From Nitrospirales bacterium (GTDB taxonomy: Bacteria; Nitrospirota; Nitrospiria; Nitrospirales; UBA8639), in NCBI GenBank assembly GCA_022828225.1, contig JAJEJG010000005.1:186001-250000 (forward strand): DNA of 64,000 nucleotides, given 5' to 3'. Both the position numbers and the translations under genes were made by a program. Within the stretch, counting starts at the first letter, position 1, and each line of letters starts with the position of its first letter. Positions 45,294-53,158 of this stretch are shown here, piece after piece. A model generated the notes under the pieces. It made no database searches. It was not told where the DNA came from and saw only the letters and a list, made by a program, of their open reading frames with translations.

Positions 45294-48200
45294 TCACTTC
45301 AAAGACGCCGGTGTGGCTTTGAGGCTTTCAAATGGATCAGCCTCCACTTGTCGCAGACTGGGGGAACCAACTCCGAGTGGCAGTATTCGCTGATCATCGG
45401 CGAAGAGCACCCTGAGGTACCCCCATTGACCTGATTGGGAATAAGGCAGCCGCCCGTTGCTCCATACATAATCCCCGGGCAACGCCCATTTTCCCCCGGC
45501 CGACGACAGGAACACATCCAGGCCTTCCGAACCGGCGAACTCCACGGTGCTGATCATATCCGCCCCGGGAAGGAAAGGTTCAATGGGCCATTCATGTTTT
45601 TCCACCGTAAACATTCCGTTCTGTTCACTGCTGGCGCCGAACACGTGGATGCGGACTTGATCTCCCGCATGTGCTTCGATAATCGGCGTGACGGGATCCT
45701 GCGGATTCTCGACTTCACAGGGTTGGAACATGCGACCGAGTGAGCACCCTGCTTCTTCGCGATACAGGTACGGCTCCGCCCGGTAGTTCACCCCCGTCAA
45801 GCCGGCCACGTTTTGTACATAGGGCATGAAGCTGGTGCCGATGATGTTATCCTCATCCTGGAAATACAACGCCGCGTCACGATAGTTTGCCCGGCCTTCA
45901 TTGCCCGGGATGGTGCGGTCCACGATGACGTCCGCTCTCCAGGTATTTTTCAGGGAAATGTCTTCCCCGGTCTTGGGATCACGATACGTCGAGCCTTGGG
46001 GGCCGATAATGAACCCGCCGAACAACCCGTTCCGGGGATTGGTGGCCACGTTCCCCCAGTCCCACACCAACGTTTGGCCCTCGCCGTTAAAGGGATCGGC
46101 ATAATAGGTGTAGACACGGGATTTCCCGGGAGCCACGGTCTGGTCGCCGGGGTTGTTGCCGAGGTTGACCCCCTGGGAATCCTTGGGATCGAACGCCAAC
46201 CCAAAGGCCGAGAACGACGCCCGCCCGTCCTTGAGCTTATTCGTGAGTTTGACTTTGAGGCAGTCGCCCACGTTGGCTCGAAGGGTCAACGGCATGGGTT
46301 GCGCGTCCCCGGACACCCGCTTGACGTCCTCCTCGAGCACGTAGATTTTGGCGTCCGGATTGCGCAGCTCGATGGTTCGTTCAAAGTCGACCTCGATGGC
46401 CTCCGGCGCATTGGAATTGAAACTCATGCCCGGATGATCCATCGCCACCACGTTGAACTGCTTGACCGGCGCATCAGGCGGACACACCGGCAACGGCTCC
46501 GGCATGCCTTCTTTGCCGTACGCCTTGTTGGGCAACGGTTGAAGATCGGAAACCGGGGCATCCAACACCCTGATGAGTCCCCACGCCCCTTCCGAGAACT
46601 TGGAATTCCGCCCGTTGAAGAACATGTAATCCCCCGGTCGATGGCGAGGTCCCCCGGCTTCGGGGATCACCAGGTCATACCGCTCGGCGATGCCGACGTG
46701 CAGGGCGTTCTTTCGGTTGGCTTCCTCCGCGTACCGTTCCGACCAGAACGTATGCCCCGAGATCGTAAACACGTTGCTTTCGTTCATCGTGACGTCCAGC
46801 AACCGGAACACGAGGGCATCGCCCAGGTACGCCCGCAGCATCGCCGTACTCGGATCACCGTGTACGCGACTGCTGAACAGCTTCGACGGGTCCGGGTCGT
46901 TCGCCAAACGCTGGGCAAACGGCTCGGCCCGGAAATTCAGCGCCCCTCCCGTGGTATGCGTGCCTCCGTTGAGGAAGGGCATGGGAGTCATTTTGATCGT
47001 CTCGTTGGGCGGCATCTGGAACGACACCGTCCGTCCCGCTTCCAACGCGACTTCCACCGGTTGCCCCGGAGGATTCCCGGCCGTCACCACGTTCACCGTA
47101 TGCGGGACGGTGTCCATGATGTGCACCATCAACTCACGGAAACTGCCCGCGACGTCATGGCCGACCCGCTCCGTCGCATGAATATCCGCGACCGGGCCGG
47201 TCCTGATCCGTTTGCCCGTCTTGGGATCATGCCACGTGGAGTTGAACGGCTCGGCAATCATCGTGCCCACGGCGCCGTGCGGCCACGTCGTGCCGCCAAA
47301 GGCGTGGTCGTGCCAGAATACGCTGCCCACGTCCGCGTCCACCCAGAACCGTTGCCGCACGTATTCCACCGTGACGATGTCGCCGGCCGGATGCGCGTGT
47401 TCCAGTACCGCGTCAAACGTCAGGGTCTTGTCACCGATGGCGACGATACGACGCACTTCCTTCCCCTCCACGTTGTCCGCTCCGACTAAAATGGGAATGC
47501 CCACGTGATACTGCTTGGCATTCGTCACGTGAATGGTCTTGTCTCCCGGCTTCGCCGCCTTGGAGACTTTGGCGTTCATCGGCACCGGCAACCCCTTCTC
47601 GGTGTCTTTCGTAAACTGCGTAAAAGGTCGCATCGACTGCTCGTACGACATGCCGGAAATCACGCCGTCGGAGGCCTGGTTGTCAAACTGGAAAAAGTGG
47701 AAATGCGTGTTGATTTTGGACGATTGGAAATTGGTAATGTCGTCGTCCAACCACTCGCTGGTCAGCGTCCAATCGATACAATCGTACACGTTCGCCCGAA
47801 CGACCAGCGGAAACTTCTTGTCGTTGTCGGCCCGCACGTCCGCCTCTTCTTCATGGACCACGTAGAGCAACCCGTTGGGATCGACGATGGCCGGCTCCTT
47901 GCCCTGCGCCGCGGACAATTCAATGGGCAGCTTGATGAAATGAATGTTGTAATCCTGGGAACCCGCCCGGTCCGGGCACAGGCTCCAGTTCCCGTTTTCT
48001 CCCGGCTCGGCCGGTCCCACCGACCGGGTCCCGTCGTCGTTGAGTCGAATCATCTCCAACCACGGAGCCGGATTGTGATCGTTGGAAAACGGCGCGCGTT
48101 TTCCAAAATGCGGCGTCAACCAGGGCCACGCCACTTTGCCGGTGGCCGGCTCGAACCGGATGGGACGCCGTTTTCCGGGTTCATAGCCTTGCCATTCGGG

Positions 48201-50189
48201 CTGATACTTCGGGTTATCGCCGATGGAGGGCTCCTTTTCGCTCATCGCGCGATTGTTATCCCATACCCAATCGACCACCGTGGCGTCATAGGCCTTGAGT
48301 TGCCCGAGTTCGTCGTCCTGGTGGCCCGGTTTGCCCTGGTTGCTGAGCTGCATGGACACCCAGTCTTTCAGCGTGACCACCGGAGGCTCGGCTTTCCAGT
48401 CGCTCTTACCGCCGTCCACGATCTTGAATTGACTGCCGAACCAATTCACGGTCGTTCCGGCCAACTGATCCGACGTCACCGGCTTGTTGATGCGTCCGAC
48501 CCGGTCCGGCAATTCCCGCAACGGCGCCATCACGTCGTTCTGGATGCCGGGCATTTGCAGGGTGTTGTAGACTCTCCAATACCCCCACATCCCCGCGACG
48601 TAGTGATGGGCCACGTGGCAGTGGAACAGGAAGTCTCCCGCCAGCCATTGACACAACCCTGACCCGCATTCCGTTTCCAGATCCAGGGCTTCGGAAGGTC
48701 CGATCACTTCCACGTCCACGCGGTCCGATTTGGTGCGAACCACCGGATATTTCACGGGCCCGTTCTGACCGGTGGTCCACACGGGCATTTGCGTGGCCCG
48801 CGGGCTGCGCTGCCAGCGAATGGCGCCGCCATGCGGATGGTGGGAATGGAACACTTCCGAGCCGCCGTGCACGACGCGGAACTTCGCGGGGTCCCCCAAA
48901 TAGCTTCGGGGAATCGTCGGCGCCGCGTCGCCGAACGTATACGAACTGTACGCCATGGATTCGTCTTCGAACCCGAAATATTCGTGCTGTACGTGCATGT
49001 TGTTGATGCCGAACGGTTCGCTGCGATAGTTCAAGGCGCGCGCGCCCGGACGATAGGCGTCCGTCAGCGGGTCGCGTTGGGGCAGGAAGTCGCCGTGCTT
49101 GTTCACCGGACGAAACGCCTCGTCACCCACTTCATGGTAAATCAACACGAACTCGCGAAAATCCGGGCCCGTGCCGTTCTTGATCATCGTCTGCCACCCG
49201 CTTCGATCCTTCGTGGCGGGACCCGTTCCCAACGGATCGTAGTACTCCGACCCGCGCGGTTCGACGACGAACACCCCGAACAAGCCCATGACCGTCAGTT
49301 CCCGGTCGTTACTGTACGTATGGAACTGCCGGCCGCCTTCCTGGGTGTCCGGATGGATGTACCATTCCATCTCGATGGCCTCTCCGACGCAATCCTTTTC
49401 ACAGTCTTCCGAAGGACCGGCCGCCACCGAATCCGGGTTGGTCGTGGTCGCCGGCTGCCCGGTTGTACTCATGACCATGTCGGACCCGTTGACGTGCAGG
49501 CTGACCTCCTCGCCGAATTCCAACGCGTTGCGCAGCGTAATTTTCACGCAATCGCCCTGGTTGCCGCGAATCACCAGGGGTTGGATCCATTGGTCCTGGA
49601 TGCCGTTTTTCACGCCGCCGGGATCATGATGGCCTTCTTTTTCCCGCGCCGCCGCATTCTTCGCTTCTTCTTCACGAATATTGGGAATGTCCTCGGTCAA
49701 GGCGTACATGTAGCCGGGATAGAAATCCAGCCATTGATTCAGGGTGATTTCCACGTTGATGGCGGAGACGTCATAGTGCCTCGCCGGCGCGGTTTTGGGA
49801 CACAATCCACCCTTCATCGAAACCGGCTCGACGTCGGAATTGGAGGCCAGCAAGCCGTTGGCCGGCCCGGCCCCGTATTGGTGCATCATCGACATGGTAT
49901 TGAAAGCGCCTGATGCATCGCCCTTATGCTGCACGTCTTTTTGCATCTGTTGCATCAACCGCTGGTGCTGCAACTCAACCAGAGCCGCGCGCTCGGCGCG
50001 TCCTTCCACCGCGTTTTCCGTGATGGTCTGGCCCTTGAGCCGCTCAGCCCACCCCGGGGACTGGGAAGACATGGACACCTTATGGGGAGAAGCCGAGTCG
50101 GCCGAAGCGTTCATGTCGAACAGCATAGCTCCTCCCCAACCCGCCAAGGCCACCGTTACCATGAATATAAGTCGTGTCGCGTAGTACAT
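45294..50189 (-). CDS. Giant multicopper oxidase (MofA/MnxG-like order)
   Basis: 1631-residue exported multi-cupredoxin protein. AGGAGG precedes the ATG; the signal region is MYYATRLIFMVTVALAGW. Copper motifs occur in a permuted order: HSHHPHGG (448-455) and the type-1/3 motif HCHVAHHYVAGM (523-534) come first. HFH (829-831) and WHDHAFGG (960) with H971 lie later. In classical laccases the HxHG/WYHDH pair precedes the HCHxxxH pair. This order and size recall the large Mn(II)-oxidising enzymes. The last ~600 residues have cupredoxin-like sequence but few His clusters. Substrate metal unproven. Confidence 0.85.
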   Translation of the reverse strand: MYYATRLIFMVTVALAGWGGAMLFDMNASADSASPHKVSMSSQSPGWAERLKGQTITENAVEGRAERAALVELQHQRLMQQMQKDVQHKGDASGAFNTMSMMHQYGAGPANGLLASNSDVEPVSMKGGLCPKTAPARHYDVSAINVEITLNQWLDFYPGYMYALTEDIPNIREEEAKNAAAREKEGHHDPGGVKNGIQDQWIQPLVIRGNQGDCVKITLRNALEFGEEVSLHVNGSDMVMSTTGQPATTTNPDSVAAGPSEDCEKDCVGEAIEMEWYIHPDTQEGGRQFHTYSNDRELTVMGLFGVFVVEPRGSEYYDPLGTGPATKDRSGWQTMIKNGTGPDFREFVLIYHEVGDEAFRPVNKHGDFLPQRDPLTDAYRPGARALNYRSEPFGINNMHVQHEYFGFEDESMAYSSYTFGDAAPTIPRSYLGDPAKFRVVHGGSEVFHSHHPHGGAIRWQRSPRATQMPVWTTGQNGPVKYPVVRTKSDRVDVEVIGPSEALDLETECGSGLCQWLAGDFLFHCHVAHHYVAGMWGYWRVYNTLQMPGIQNDVMAPLRELPDRVGRINKPVTSDQLAGTTVNWFGSQFKIVDGGKSDWKAEPPVVTLKDWVSMQLSNQGKPGHQDDELGQLKAYDATVVDWVWDNNRAMSEKEPSIGDNPKYQPEWQGYEPGKRRPIRFEPATGKVAWPWLTPHFGKRAPFSNDHNPAPWLEMIRLNDDGTRSVGPAEPGENGNWSLCPDRAGSQDYNIHFIKLPIELSAAQGKEPAIVDPNGLLYVVHEEEADVRADNDKKFPLVVRANVYDCIDWTLTSEWLDDDITNFQSSKINTHFHFFQFDNQASDGVISGMSYEQSMRPFTQFTKDTEKGLPVPMNAKVSKAAKPGDKTIHVTNAKQYHVGIPILVGADNVEGKEVRRIVAIGDKTLTFDAVLEHAHPAGDIVTVEYVRQRFWVDADVGSVFWHDHAFGGTTWPHGAVGTMIAEPFNSTWHDPKTGKRIRTGPVADIHATERVGHDVAGSFRELMVHIMDTVPHTVNVVTAGNPPGQPVEVALEAGRTVSFQMPPNETIKMTPMPFLNGGTHTTGGALNFRAEPFAQRLANDPDPSKLFSSRVHGDPSTAMLRAYLGDALVFRLLDVTMNESNVFTISGHTFWSERYAEEANRKNALHVGIAERYDLVIPEAGGPRHRPGDYMFFNGRNSKFSEGAWGLIRVLDAPVSDLQPLPNKAYGKEGMPEPLPVCPPDAPVKQFNVVAMDHPGMSFNSNAPEAIEVDFERTIELRNPDAKIYVLEEDVKRVSGDAQPMPLTLRANVGDCLKVKLTNKLKDGRASFSAFGLAFDPKDSQGVNLGNNPGDQTVAPGKSRVYTYYADPFNGEGQTLVWDWGNVATNPRNGLFGGFIIGPQGSTYRDPKTGEDISLKNTWRADVIVDRTIPGNEGRANYRDAALYFQDEDNIIGTSFMPYVQNVAGLTGVNYRAEPYLYREEAGCSLGRMFQPCEVENPQDPVTPIIEAHAGDQVRIHVFGASSEQNGMFTVEKHEWPIEPFLPGADMISTVEFAGSEGLDVFLSSAGGKWALPGDYVWSNGRLPYSQSGQWGYLRVLFADDQRILPLGVGSPSLRQVEADPFESLKATPASLK

Positions 50190-50214
50190 CGTTCGGCCTC
50201 CTGACTCAAATAAG

Positions 50215-50356
50215 GGAACCTCTGATTTATTGCACTATCGGGCGTATGGCTGCGTTGTGTCCTCGCTCAACCCTCGCCTATCTCTGTGATAAGCCTCGGG
50301 TTTCGCTGCGGGACGCCTTGCCCTGCATCCCGCTATCACCATAAATCAGAGGTTCC
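50215..50356. mobile_element. 142-bp MITE-like element with 16-bp TIRs
   Basis: Terminal inverted repeats GGAACCTCTGATTTAT (50215-50230) and ATAAATCAGAGGTTCC (50341-50356), with perfect 16-bp match. Flanking direct repeats ATAAG at 50210-50214 and 50357-50361 fit a 5-bp target-site duplication. No coding capacity. It sits 25 bp from the start of the giant oxidase gene, between promoter and ATG. Confidence 0.85.
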
Positions 50357-50431
50357 ATAAGAAATAGGTGGATGAAAACTTCATTCCTCACGGATGCATA
50401 CACGTGTGGCAGAGCACCTACCGGGACAATC

Positions 50432-50447
50432 TGCAAGGATGGTGCCT
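50432..50447 (-). promoter_or_regulatory. Sigma-54 promoter of the multicopper oxidase
   Basis: Minus-strand AGGCAC-CATCC-TTGCA with invariant GG and GC 10 nt apart. It points towards the oxidase start at 50189. The upstream NtrC-type regulator is the obvious activator. Confidence 0.7.
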
Positions 50448-50587
50448 CAGAAGGGTTTTGAAAGGTACTGCATCCAACTCACTGAATGTAAAAGGAAATG
50501 GTCCGATGCATGGAAGCCGTCGTGTGGTTAAAAGCGTCAGCGACAAGAAGCCGGATGTGGCAGGAAGGAACAAGCGGGGAGAGGGTT

Positions 50588-51766
50588 CTAGGGCGTCGGA
50601 TGGACGGGCAGATGGATATGGAACGTGGTTCCTTGTCCGGGTTCGCTATCCACCGTGATGGAGCCCTGATGCTCTTCGATAATGCCGTGCACAACCGTGA
50701 GTCCCAACCCTGTCCCTTCCCCCACTTCTTTCGTGGAGAAAAAGGGGGTGAAGAGTTTCGGAAGGTGTTCAGAGGGGATACCGTATCCCGTGTCGGACAC
50801 CGACAGATGTACGTGCTCGTTGCGACAACGGAGTCTGAGAGACAGGGTCCCTCCCCTGGGCATGGCCTGAATGGCATTGACGATAAGATTCAAGAGGACC
50901 TGGCCTATATGATCCCGGTCGGCCGACACGTTCGGACACGTCGACTCCATGTCCACTTCAAGCCTGATGTCTCGCTCTTCCAAACGTTCCTGAATCACGT
51001 CCATGATATCCTGCACCACCAGCGACAAAGCCAGCGGACGGCGTTCAATGGGGTGTTGTCTGGCGAAACTCAACAACTGATTCATGATTTTCGTGATCCG
51101 TTCGACCTGCGACACAATGGTGGTCAACCCTTTCTTGGTCGATTCCTCCGACGTCTTTCGCATCAGGTACTCGGCTCGCCCGAGGATGACGTTCATGGGC
51201 GTGCCGATTTCATGAGCCATGCCCGCGGCCAGCGTCCCCAATTCAGCCAATCGTTCGGCCCGCAGGAGTTGGCGTTCCAATCCCAGCCGCTCCGTGATAT
51301 CCCGAAGGATAACCGAATAAAACCGCTGCTTGTTTTTCTTGAACTGAGAAATGGACGCTTCGATGGGAAACTCTTCTCCATTGAACCGCCGCCCCGATAC
51401 GGCGCCCAAGGCCCCCATGCGCCGGTCGGTGACATGGGTTTTCCCAAAATTCTGCACGTGCTGACGATGATTGGCGCGAAACCGCTCAGGAATAAACCGG
51501 TCGATCGGCTTCCCCATGGCGTCCCCGGCCGAACAGCCGAACATGGTTTCCGCGGCCGCGTTGAATTGGACTACGTGCTGTTTCTCATTAATCGTGATGA
51601 TGGCATCCATGGCCGACTGAATGATGCCGGCCAGTTGCAGCTCCGCGCCTTGCAGCCCTTTTGCCCTCCGCTGATGGACGCCTTCCTGAGATCGAAGTTC
51701 GGCGATTTCGCGTCGAAGAATCTCGACCTCTTTCAAAAGTTGGGCTTTGGAGGGATGAGGCGCCAT
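50588..51766 (-). CDS. PAS-containing cytoplasmic histidine kinase
   Basis: 392 residues with no membrane segments. An N-terminal coiled coil (about 5-40) leads into a PAS domain (IIQSAMDAIITINEKQHVV...GEEFPIEASIS). The H-box AHEIGTPMNVIL (near 186), N-box LLNLIVNAIQAMP and G-boxes DTGYGIP and GEGTGLGLTVVHG form a full HisKA/HATPase module of the NtrB type. It lies 36 nt after the NtrC-type regulator. Confidence 0.9.
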   Translation of the reverse strand: MAPHPSKAQLLKEVEILRREIAELRSQEGVHQRRAKGLQGAELQLAGIIQSAMDAIITINEKQHVVQFNAAAETMFGCSAGDAMGKPIDRFIPERFRANHRQHVQNFGKTHVTDRRMGALGAVSGRRFNGEEFPIEASISQFKKNKQRFYSVILRDITERLGLERQLLRAERLAELGTLAAGMAHEIGTPMNVILGRAEYLMRKTSEESTKKGLTTIVSQVERITKIMNQLLSFARQHPIERRPLALSLVVQDIMDVIQERLEERDIRLEVDMESTCPNVSADRDHIGQVLLNLIVNAIQAMPRGGTLSLRLRCRNEHVHLSVSDTGYGIPSEHLPKLFTPFFSTKEVGEGTGLGLTVVHGIIEEHQGSITVDSEPGQGTTFHIHLPVHPTP

Positions 51767-51802
51767 GCTGTGTTCCCGACGGGTTCTTCAGGAAGCTGCT
51801 TG

Positions 51803-53158
51803 CTACATTTCTCCCAGTTTCCGGTAGAGGGTCTTGCGGTCGATGCCGAGGATCTGCGCCGCCTGCAATTTGTTGCCCCGTGTCTTTTCCAAAATCCTTT
51901 TGATGTACTCGCGCTCGACTTCTTCCATCGAAAGCGACCGCTCGCTTCCTTCCTCGATCAACCGCCGTTCTCCTTTCGCCTCGCGAATGGCGGCGGGTAG
52001 GGCCTCGACGGTCACGATATTTCCCGGCGCCAGGATGACGGCGCGTTCGATCACGTTTTCCAATTCCCGAACGTTGCCGGGCCACGGGTAATCGATCAAC
52101 AACCCGAGTGCCGACTCGGCGATTCCCGTAGACGGCTTGCCCATTCCGTTCGCTATCTTATGCAGCAACATGTTGCACAGCAACGGAATGTCTTCCTTAC
52201 GCTCACGCAAGGGAGGAAGCCGGATTTCAATGACGTTCAGTCGGTAGTACAGATCTTCCCGAAACCGTTTAGCCGTCACTTCCTCCGCCAACACCAAATT
52301 CGTGGCCGCGATAATCCGCACGTTAATGGGAACGGACTGCGTCGCGCCCACCCGTCGGATTTCACGTTCCTGGACGGCCCGCAACAATTTCGCCTGCAAC
52401 AGCATCGGCATTTCACTGATCTCATCCAAAAACAACGTGCCCTTTTCGGCCTCTTGGAACAATCCGCGTTTATCGGACCTGGCGTCGGTAAAGGCCCCTT
52501 TCACGTGCCCGAACAATTCGCTTTCCAGAAGCTGTTCGGGAATCGCCGCACAATTCACCGGGATAAACGGTGCATCCTTGCGGCTACTATTATAATGAAT
52601 GGCCTTGGCCACCAACTCTTTTCCGGTCCCACTCTCGCCGGAAATGAGAATATTCGCCTGGGAGTCGGCCACTCGGCGAATGAGTTCGAACACCTCCCGC
52701 ATGGGTTTACTCTTCCCGAGAATTTGATCGAAGGCGTATTCCCGATTGACCTGCTTCCTCAGGTGTGCGACTTCCCGGCGGAGGGACGCTTCGCGGAGAG
52801 CTTTCTCAACCGTCACCAGCAGTTCATCCGTTTTGATGGGTTTCGTCAGATAATCGAAAGCTCCCCGTTTCATCGCATCGACGGCCGACTCTACGGTGCC
52901 GAACGCCGTCATCATGATGGTGTTACAGGCGGGATGGCGTTGGACCAGTTCGCGCAGGAGTTCAGCTCCATCCATTCCCTTCATCCGGAGATCCGTCAAA
53001 ACGACGAGATATTCGTCATTCTCCAGACGGTCCAGGGCTTCCCGCCCCTCTCTTGCAACGCCGACCGGATAGCCGTGATCTTCCAAGATATCTTTGAGAA
53101 GATCCCGCATTTCCCGGTCGTCATCAACGATGAGAATGGAATTGGCGTGTGCTGTCAT
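51803..53158 (-). CDS. NtrC-family response regulator
   Basis: 451 residues. Receiver with D56 (VVLTDLRMKGMD), AAA+ domain with GESGTGKE near 172, and C-terminal Fis HTH ending KTLYRKLGEM. The sigma-54-contact loop reads GAFTDA rather than GAFTGA. It heads an RR-HK-oxidase order on the minus strand. Confidence 0.9.
   Translation of the reverse strand: MTAHANSILIVDDDREMRDLLKDILEDHGYPVGVAREGREALDRLENDEYLVVLTDLRMKGMDGAELLRELVQRHPACNTIMMTAFGTVESAVDAMKRGAFDYLTKPIKTDELLVTVEKALREASLRREVAHLRKQVNREYAFDQILGKSKPMREVFELIRRVADSQANILISGESGTGKELVAKAIHYNSSRKDAPFIPVNCAAIPEQLLESELFGHVKGAFTDARSDKRGLFQEAEKGTLFLDEISEMPMLLQAKLLRAVQEREIRRVGATQSVPINVRIIAATNLVLAEEVTAKRFREDLYYRLNVIEIRLPPLRERKEDIPLLCNMLLHKIANGMGKPSTGIAESALGLLIDYPWPGNVRELENVIERAVILAPGNIVTVEALPAAIREAKGERRLIEEGSERSLSMEEVEREYIKRILEKTRGNKLQAAQILGIDRKTLYRKLGEM

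Follow-up and report, generated by a model that had tools for sequence, protein, structure and literature searches.

The locus examined here raises the question of what the short repeat lying between a sigma-54 type promoter and the start of a giant multicopper oxidase gene is, how it came to be there, and whether it affects the gene. The window, i.e. the whole stretch of 64,000 nucleotides analysed, comes from a Nitrospirales genome of 2.36 Mb in 24 contigs, called G000 below. The initial annotation had described a MITE of 142 bp with perfect 16-bp ends and ATAAG on both sides, placed 25 bp from the oxidase ATG and about 75 bp downstream of a -24/-12 motif. All of these features are confirmed in the sequence, with the ATG at 50189 on the minus strand and 77 bp measured to the motif (Table 1). 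The element is of an ordinary, already known kind, and its insertion is real and lineage-specific.

Table 1. Features of the oxidase locus (positions in the window)
Feature	Position	Strand	Remarks
MnxG-like giant multicopper oxidase, 1631 aa	45294..50189	-	Pfam Cu-oxidase_3; PDB 9bxa MnxG, E=1.4e-78
Ribosome-binding region AGGAGG of the oxidase gene	50194..50205	-	Intact between element and ATG
Target duplication ATAAG, left copy	50210..50214	.	One copy in the empty site of G003
MITE	50215..50356	.	142 bp; majority 'antisense' orientation of the family relative to the oxidase
Left terminal inverted repeat GGAACCTCTGATTTAT	50215..50230	+	16-bp end
Right terminal inverted repeat ATAAATCAGAGGTTCC	50341..50356	-	Perfect 16-bp inverted match to the left end
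Target duplication ATAAG, right copy	50357..50361	.	One copy in the empty site of G003
Sigma-54 (-24/-12) motif GGCACCATCCTTGC	50433..50446	-	GG-N10-GC; kept in seven genus loci (7/7, G000 included); predicted +1 near 50421
PAS sensor histidine kinase	50588..51766	-	Upstream of the oxidase, co-directional
AtoC/NtrC-type sigma-54-dependent response regulator	51803..53158	-	Profile match

The element and its insertion at the oxidase locus

The element, which begins with GGAACC, is a genuine MITE: it is short and without a transposase gene, has inverted ends and a target duplication, is missing from orthologous sites and exists in many near-identical copies. The family of copies, the duplications and the empty orthologous sites thus support the identity originally proposed. 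Neither strand of the MITE consensus contains a long reading frame, and no known RNA family matching the element was found. The sizes first given for ends and duplication are right for the oxidase copy and do not extend to the family, whose consensus ends measure 18 bp and whose duplication is of 4 bp (perfect in 36 of 87 copies examined, with 5 bp in two of the 87). ATAAG at the oxidase copy can be read as an uncommon 5-bp duplication or as ATAA with an additional G. The target consensus of the family is TTAA, which is symmetric, and the flanks are likewise symmetric in composition.

When the upstream regions of the oxidase were aligned for seven genomes of the genus (G000, G003, G011, G001, G008, G006 and G004), the element was present in G000 only, between the sigma-54 site and the start codon as annotated. 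The relatives were expected to lack it, and the idea that all might carry the same sequence, with no empty site anywhere, is not borne out, since all six orthologous loci are empty. In G003, whose oxidase is 96% identical, the empty site TTTCTTATTTGA is undisturbed and has a single CTTAT (ATAAG on the other strand). Judged from these alignments, the insertion at the oxidase locus is recent and lineage-specific, dating from after the split from G003, the nearest relative sampled. With one filled and six empty sites, the locus shows cleanly how a mobile hairpin can come to lie in the leader of a gene under sigma-54 control.

Copy family and distribution

The source genome contains about forty strong DNA matches to the element and 55 copies of its interior detected by a covariance model, most of them a few percent from the consensus. 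A genome search for the 16-bp end, allowing up to two mismatches, gave 94 occurrences in G000 as against one for a reversed-pattern control, so that the element is not a product of chance. Ten of thirteen other genomes of the genus carry the MITE, in 4 to at least 73 copies, and three do not; since each species is represented by a single draft or metagenome assembly, copy numbers are lower bounds. The genomes are Nitrospirales metagenome genomes, e.g. 'Nitrospira sp. SB0662_bin_26' and 'bin75', and we take them to be sponge-associated from names such as SB0662_bin_26. With the covariance model the MITE was absent from 35 genomes of nine other genera in the family, and it was absent from the order-level genomes sampled as well. 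On the searches made, the family is restricted to the genus.

Two further types of copy were seen. Length variants of about 170-204 bp bear arms, and MITE cores without recognisable ends are located at or just past stop codons (L218, L222, L223, L228, L230, L213 and others).

Relationship to IS5-family insertion sequences

An IS5-family IS of 1165 bp is present in G008 (L092:1014-2178) and encodes a 313-aa transposase scoring 312 bits against the NCBIfam IS5 model (cut-off 140); its insertion is flanked by a 4-bp TTTA duplication. The IS5-family IS of G008 and G013 shares GGAACCTCTGATT with the MITE, i.e. 13 of the 16 terminal bases. Only these 13-bp ends align convincingly; as the interior is unrelated and shares nothing with the IS found, the MITE is not a simple internal deletion of it. 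In G013 an arm-bearing MITE of about 196 bp (L191:1251-1446), with inverted ends of about 44 bp, sits within the left end of an IS5-family copy that has decayed.

No transposase with MITE ends and no DDE_Tnp_1 transposase was found in G000, an assembly of the kind from which multicopy IS are often lost. Regions of G000 with unpaired or widely spaced ends (C7, C12, C16 and C22) were read for a transposase and contain ordinary genes without one among them. An IS5-type search with PF13586 across the genus gave no match. A closer IS partner was also sought in the wider family, where related transposases were found, none with MITE ends 900-1700 bp apart. The IS with the same 13 terminal bases in G008 and G013 is thus a candidate for the transposase-bearing relative suggested by the initial annotation.

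Oxidase, regulators and sigma-54 promoter

The oxidase is MnxG-like and by sequence homologous to PDB 9bxa; with 121.9 bits it is far under the 3100-bit cut-off of the NCBIfam MnxG equivalog model, and manganese oxidation is a putative function. The kinase and the AtoC/NtrC-type regulator are the upstream neighbours of the oxidase in this genus. The stretch 45294-53158, with oxidase, kinase, sigma-54 regulator and conserved -24/-12 site, parallels the MnxS/MnxR control of Pseudomonas. A second giant oxidase, a paralogue with about 80% identity, is found at G000:C13:7193-12214 and at L082; some 1.4 kb upstream of it, between two short genes, is another copy of the MITE. Related giant oxidases (about 54% identity; L126-L150) are widespread in Nitrospinota.

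Most orthologues checked in other Nitrospirales genera (82-86% identity) have a strong TTGGCAY-N5-TTGC-type site 205-300 nt upstream of the start; few shuffles score as well as this -24/-12 site, and just upstream there is a gene for a sigma-54 activator. No sigma-54 site was detectable upstream of the distant Nitrospinota oxidases checked. If the conserved site is the promoter used, the element is part of the mRNA leader as first annotated. Counted from the predicted start site, the leader most likely measures about 232 nt with the element, against about 85 nt in G003. This length is unlikely to be harmful in itself, because the leader of this gene appears to measure at least 200 nt in other genera, where about 230 nt would be normal.

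Predicted RNA structure

The oxidase-locus copy is predicted to fold at -65.5 kcal/mol (z -7.2) when read from the minus strand and at -60.5 kcal/mol (z -6.0) from the plus strand, and within the leader the element forms a self-contained hairpin in the predicted fold. The predicted unpaired fraction at the ribosome site is 0.28 with the element and 0.21 without it, and at the start codon 0.32 and 0.30, respectively. The altered translation suggested earlier is thus unsupported, as predicted ribosome-site accessibility barely shifts, and from folding the effect of the element on translation of the oxidase is probably small. No terminator was found within the element.

Orientation near gene starts

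Of 181 independent MITE sites (142 in a discovery set and 39 new sites in a held-out set), those lying no more than 60 bp from a gene start comprise 56 antisense and 12 sense copies. The bias is present in the discovery set (44 antisense vs 9 sense, p=1.2e-6) and again in the held-out set (12 vs 3, p=0.035). In co-directional gaps the counts were 46 vs 16 (p=1.8e-4) and 16 vs 4 (p=0.012), respectively, and in divergent gaps the nearer start was the antisense one in 18 of 23. Gene calling relied on a simple script based on codon scores, which makes individual distances approximate; errors of this kind should not favour either orientation. The oxidase copy has the majority orientation and a typical distance to the start, which is mostly 20-50 bp in the family. 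An orientation bias at gene 3' ends was also considered and dropped (29 vs 10 in discovery, 5 vs 5 in the held-out set).

The bias near gene starts is a new observation of this work. Target choice does not readily explain it, given a symmetric target and two ends of identical sequence; both selection against the other orientation and an insertion-time effect of the interior are possible causes. That copies near starts face the same way in about five of six cases across the genus suggests that orientation matters, and with so strongly non-random a pattern, pure neutrality of insertions near starts does not fully account for the family.

One explanation is that the MITE acts as an orientation-dependent leader element, the minus-strand hairpin helping the gene or not harming it, for instance through a more stable mRNA 5' end, and the plus-strand form being harmful; the oxidase copy would then have been kept for this reason. 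The start-proximal antisense excess, its recurrence in divergent gaps and the symmetry of target and flanks fit this explanation, as does the better folding of the minus-strand consensus RNA (-73.6 vs -62.2 kcal/mol). Paired columns of the interior show half the variation of unpaired ones, and core pairs are mostly kept, four of them with compensatory changes, which are a modest sign of structural constraint. Such an element would resemble ERIC in Yersinia, where the effect on mRNA stability depends on orientation (PMC2229807). Against it, the bias already exists in copies at least 95% identical to that at the oxidase (32 vs 5), which fits an insertion-time bias as well, the core divergence of antisense copies at starts is only slightly lower (p=0.07), and predicted accessibility of the ribosome site at the oxidase is essentially the same with and without the element. 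We regard this explanation of the oxidase copy as unlikely. Its extension to the genus, a mobile 5' leader module whose minus-strand hairpin, 20-50 nt before starts, would affect how stable or how well translated the mRNAs of dozens of genes are, with the MnxG-like oxidase as its latest recipient, is about as unlikely. A replicated start-proximal bias in symmetric targets makes it a testable question whether bacterial MITE hairpins act on mRNA in one orientation only.

Origin of the interior and the case for a promoter

A different proposal concerns the origin of the family rather than this insertion, namely that a dispersed structured repeat residing after stop codons came first and was later captured by IS5-type ends to become the interior. 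The cores with missing or decayed ends at or just past gene 3' ends, which are still 82-95% conserved, point this way, together with one end-less core in the same position in G004 and G010 and the arm-bearing variants. Yet the end-less cores are few and scattered and fit old MITEs with decayed ends equally well, no cores occur outside the genus, and the orientation bias at 3' ends was not reproduced in the held-out set, so that we consider such a capture distinctly improbable.

That the element drives the oxidase from a promoter of its own, independently of sigma-54, as the initial annotation had also envisaged, would suit the start-proximal bias if the promoter faced outward, but is very improbable, as no sigma-70-like match to the E. 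coli consensus (from which the promoters of this phylum may differ) occurs in 50100-50600 and the best scores on either strand are weak and no better than those of shuffles.

Proposed history of the insertion

The account we prefer, and consider probable as a whole, is that the MITE is non-autonomous and confined to the genus, relies with its IS5-type ends on an IS5-family transposase acting in trans, and was recently inserted here at a site where it was most likely tolerated. The transposase would be that of the IS in G008 and G013 or of a sister element, and transposition would duplicate a TTAA-like 4-bp target. After the split from G003 a copy landed between the sigma-54 promoter and the ribosome site and left both of them intact; the extended leader would have gained one long self-contained hairpin. 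The post-transcriptional effect on the oxidase would be modest at most, and the insertion presumably near-neutral.

Comparison with known systems

In Pseudomonas putida GB-1, the sensor kinases MnxS1 and MnxS2 and the regulator MnxR exert sigma-54 control over mnxG and mcoA (PMC11409713, PMC11930936). The locus described here has the same components, i.e. a giant MnxG-like oxidase, a -24/-12 promoter, a sensor kinase and a sigma-54 response regulator; it differs in that the regulators adjoin the oxidase gene, that there is one kinase and not two, and that the oxidase falls far short of the MnxG equivalog cut-off. With MITEs having IS5 ends the element has in common that it is short, non-coding and multi-copy, shares its inverted ends with an IS5-family IS and shows a 4-bp duplication, while its interior is foreign to the IS found and no transposase with its ends was found in the G000 assembly. 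ERIC, Correia-NEMIS and RUP are bacterial MITE-like repeats which mostly start with 5'-TA (PMC2229807). From these the element is distinguished by starting with GG, by its TTAA-type 4-bp duplication and by its occurrence in one Nitrospirales genus; like them, it is 100-200 bp long, forms a long stem-loop once transcribed and lies beside genes.
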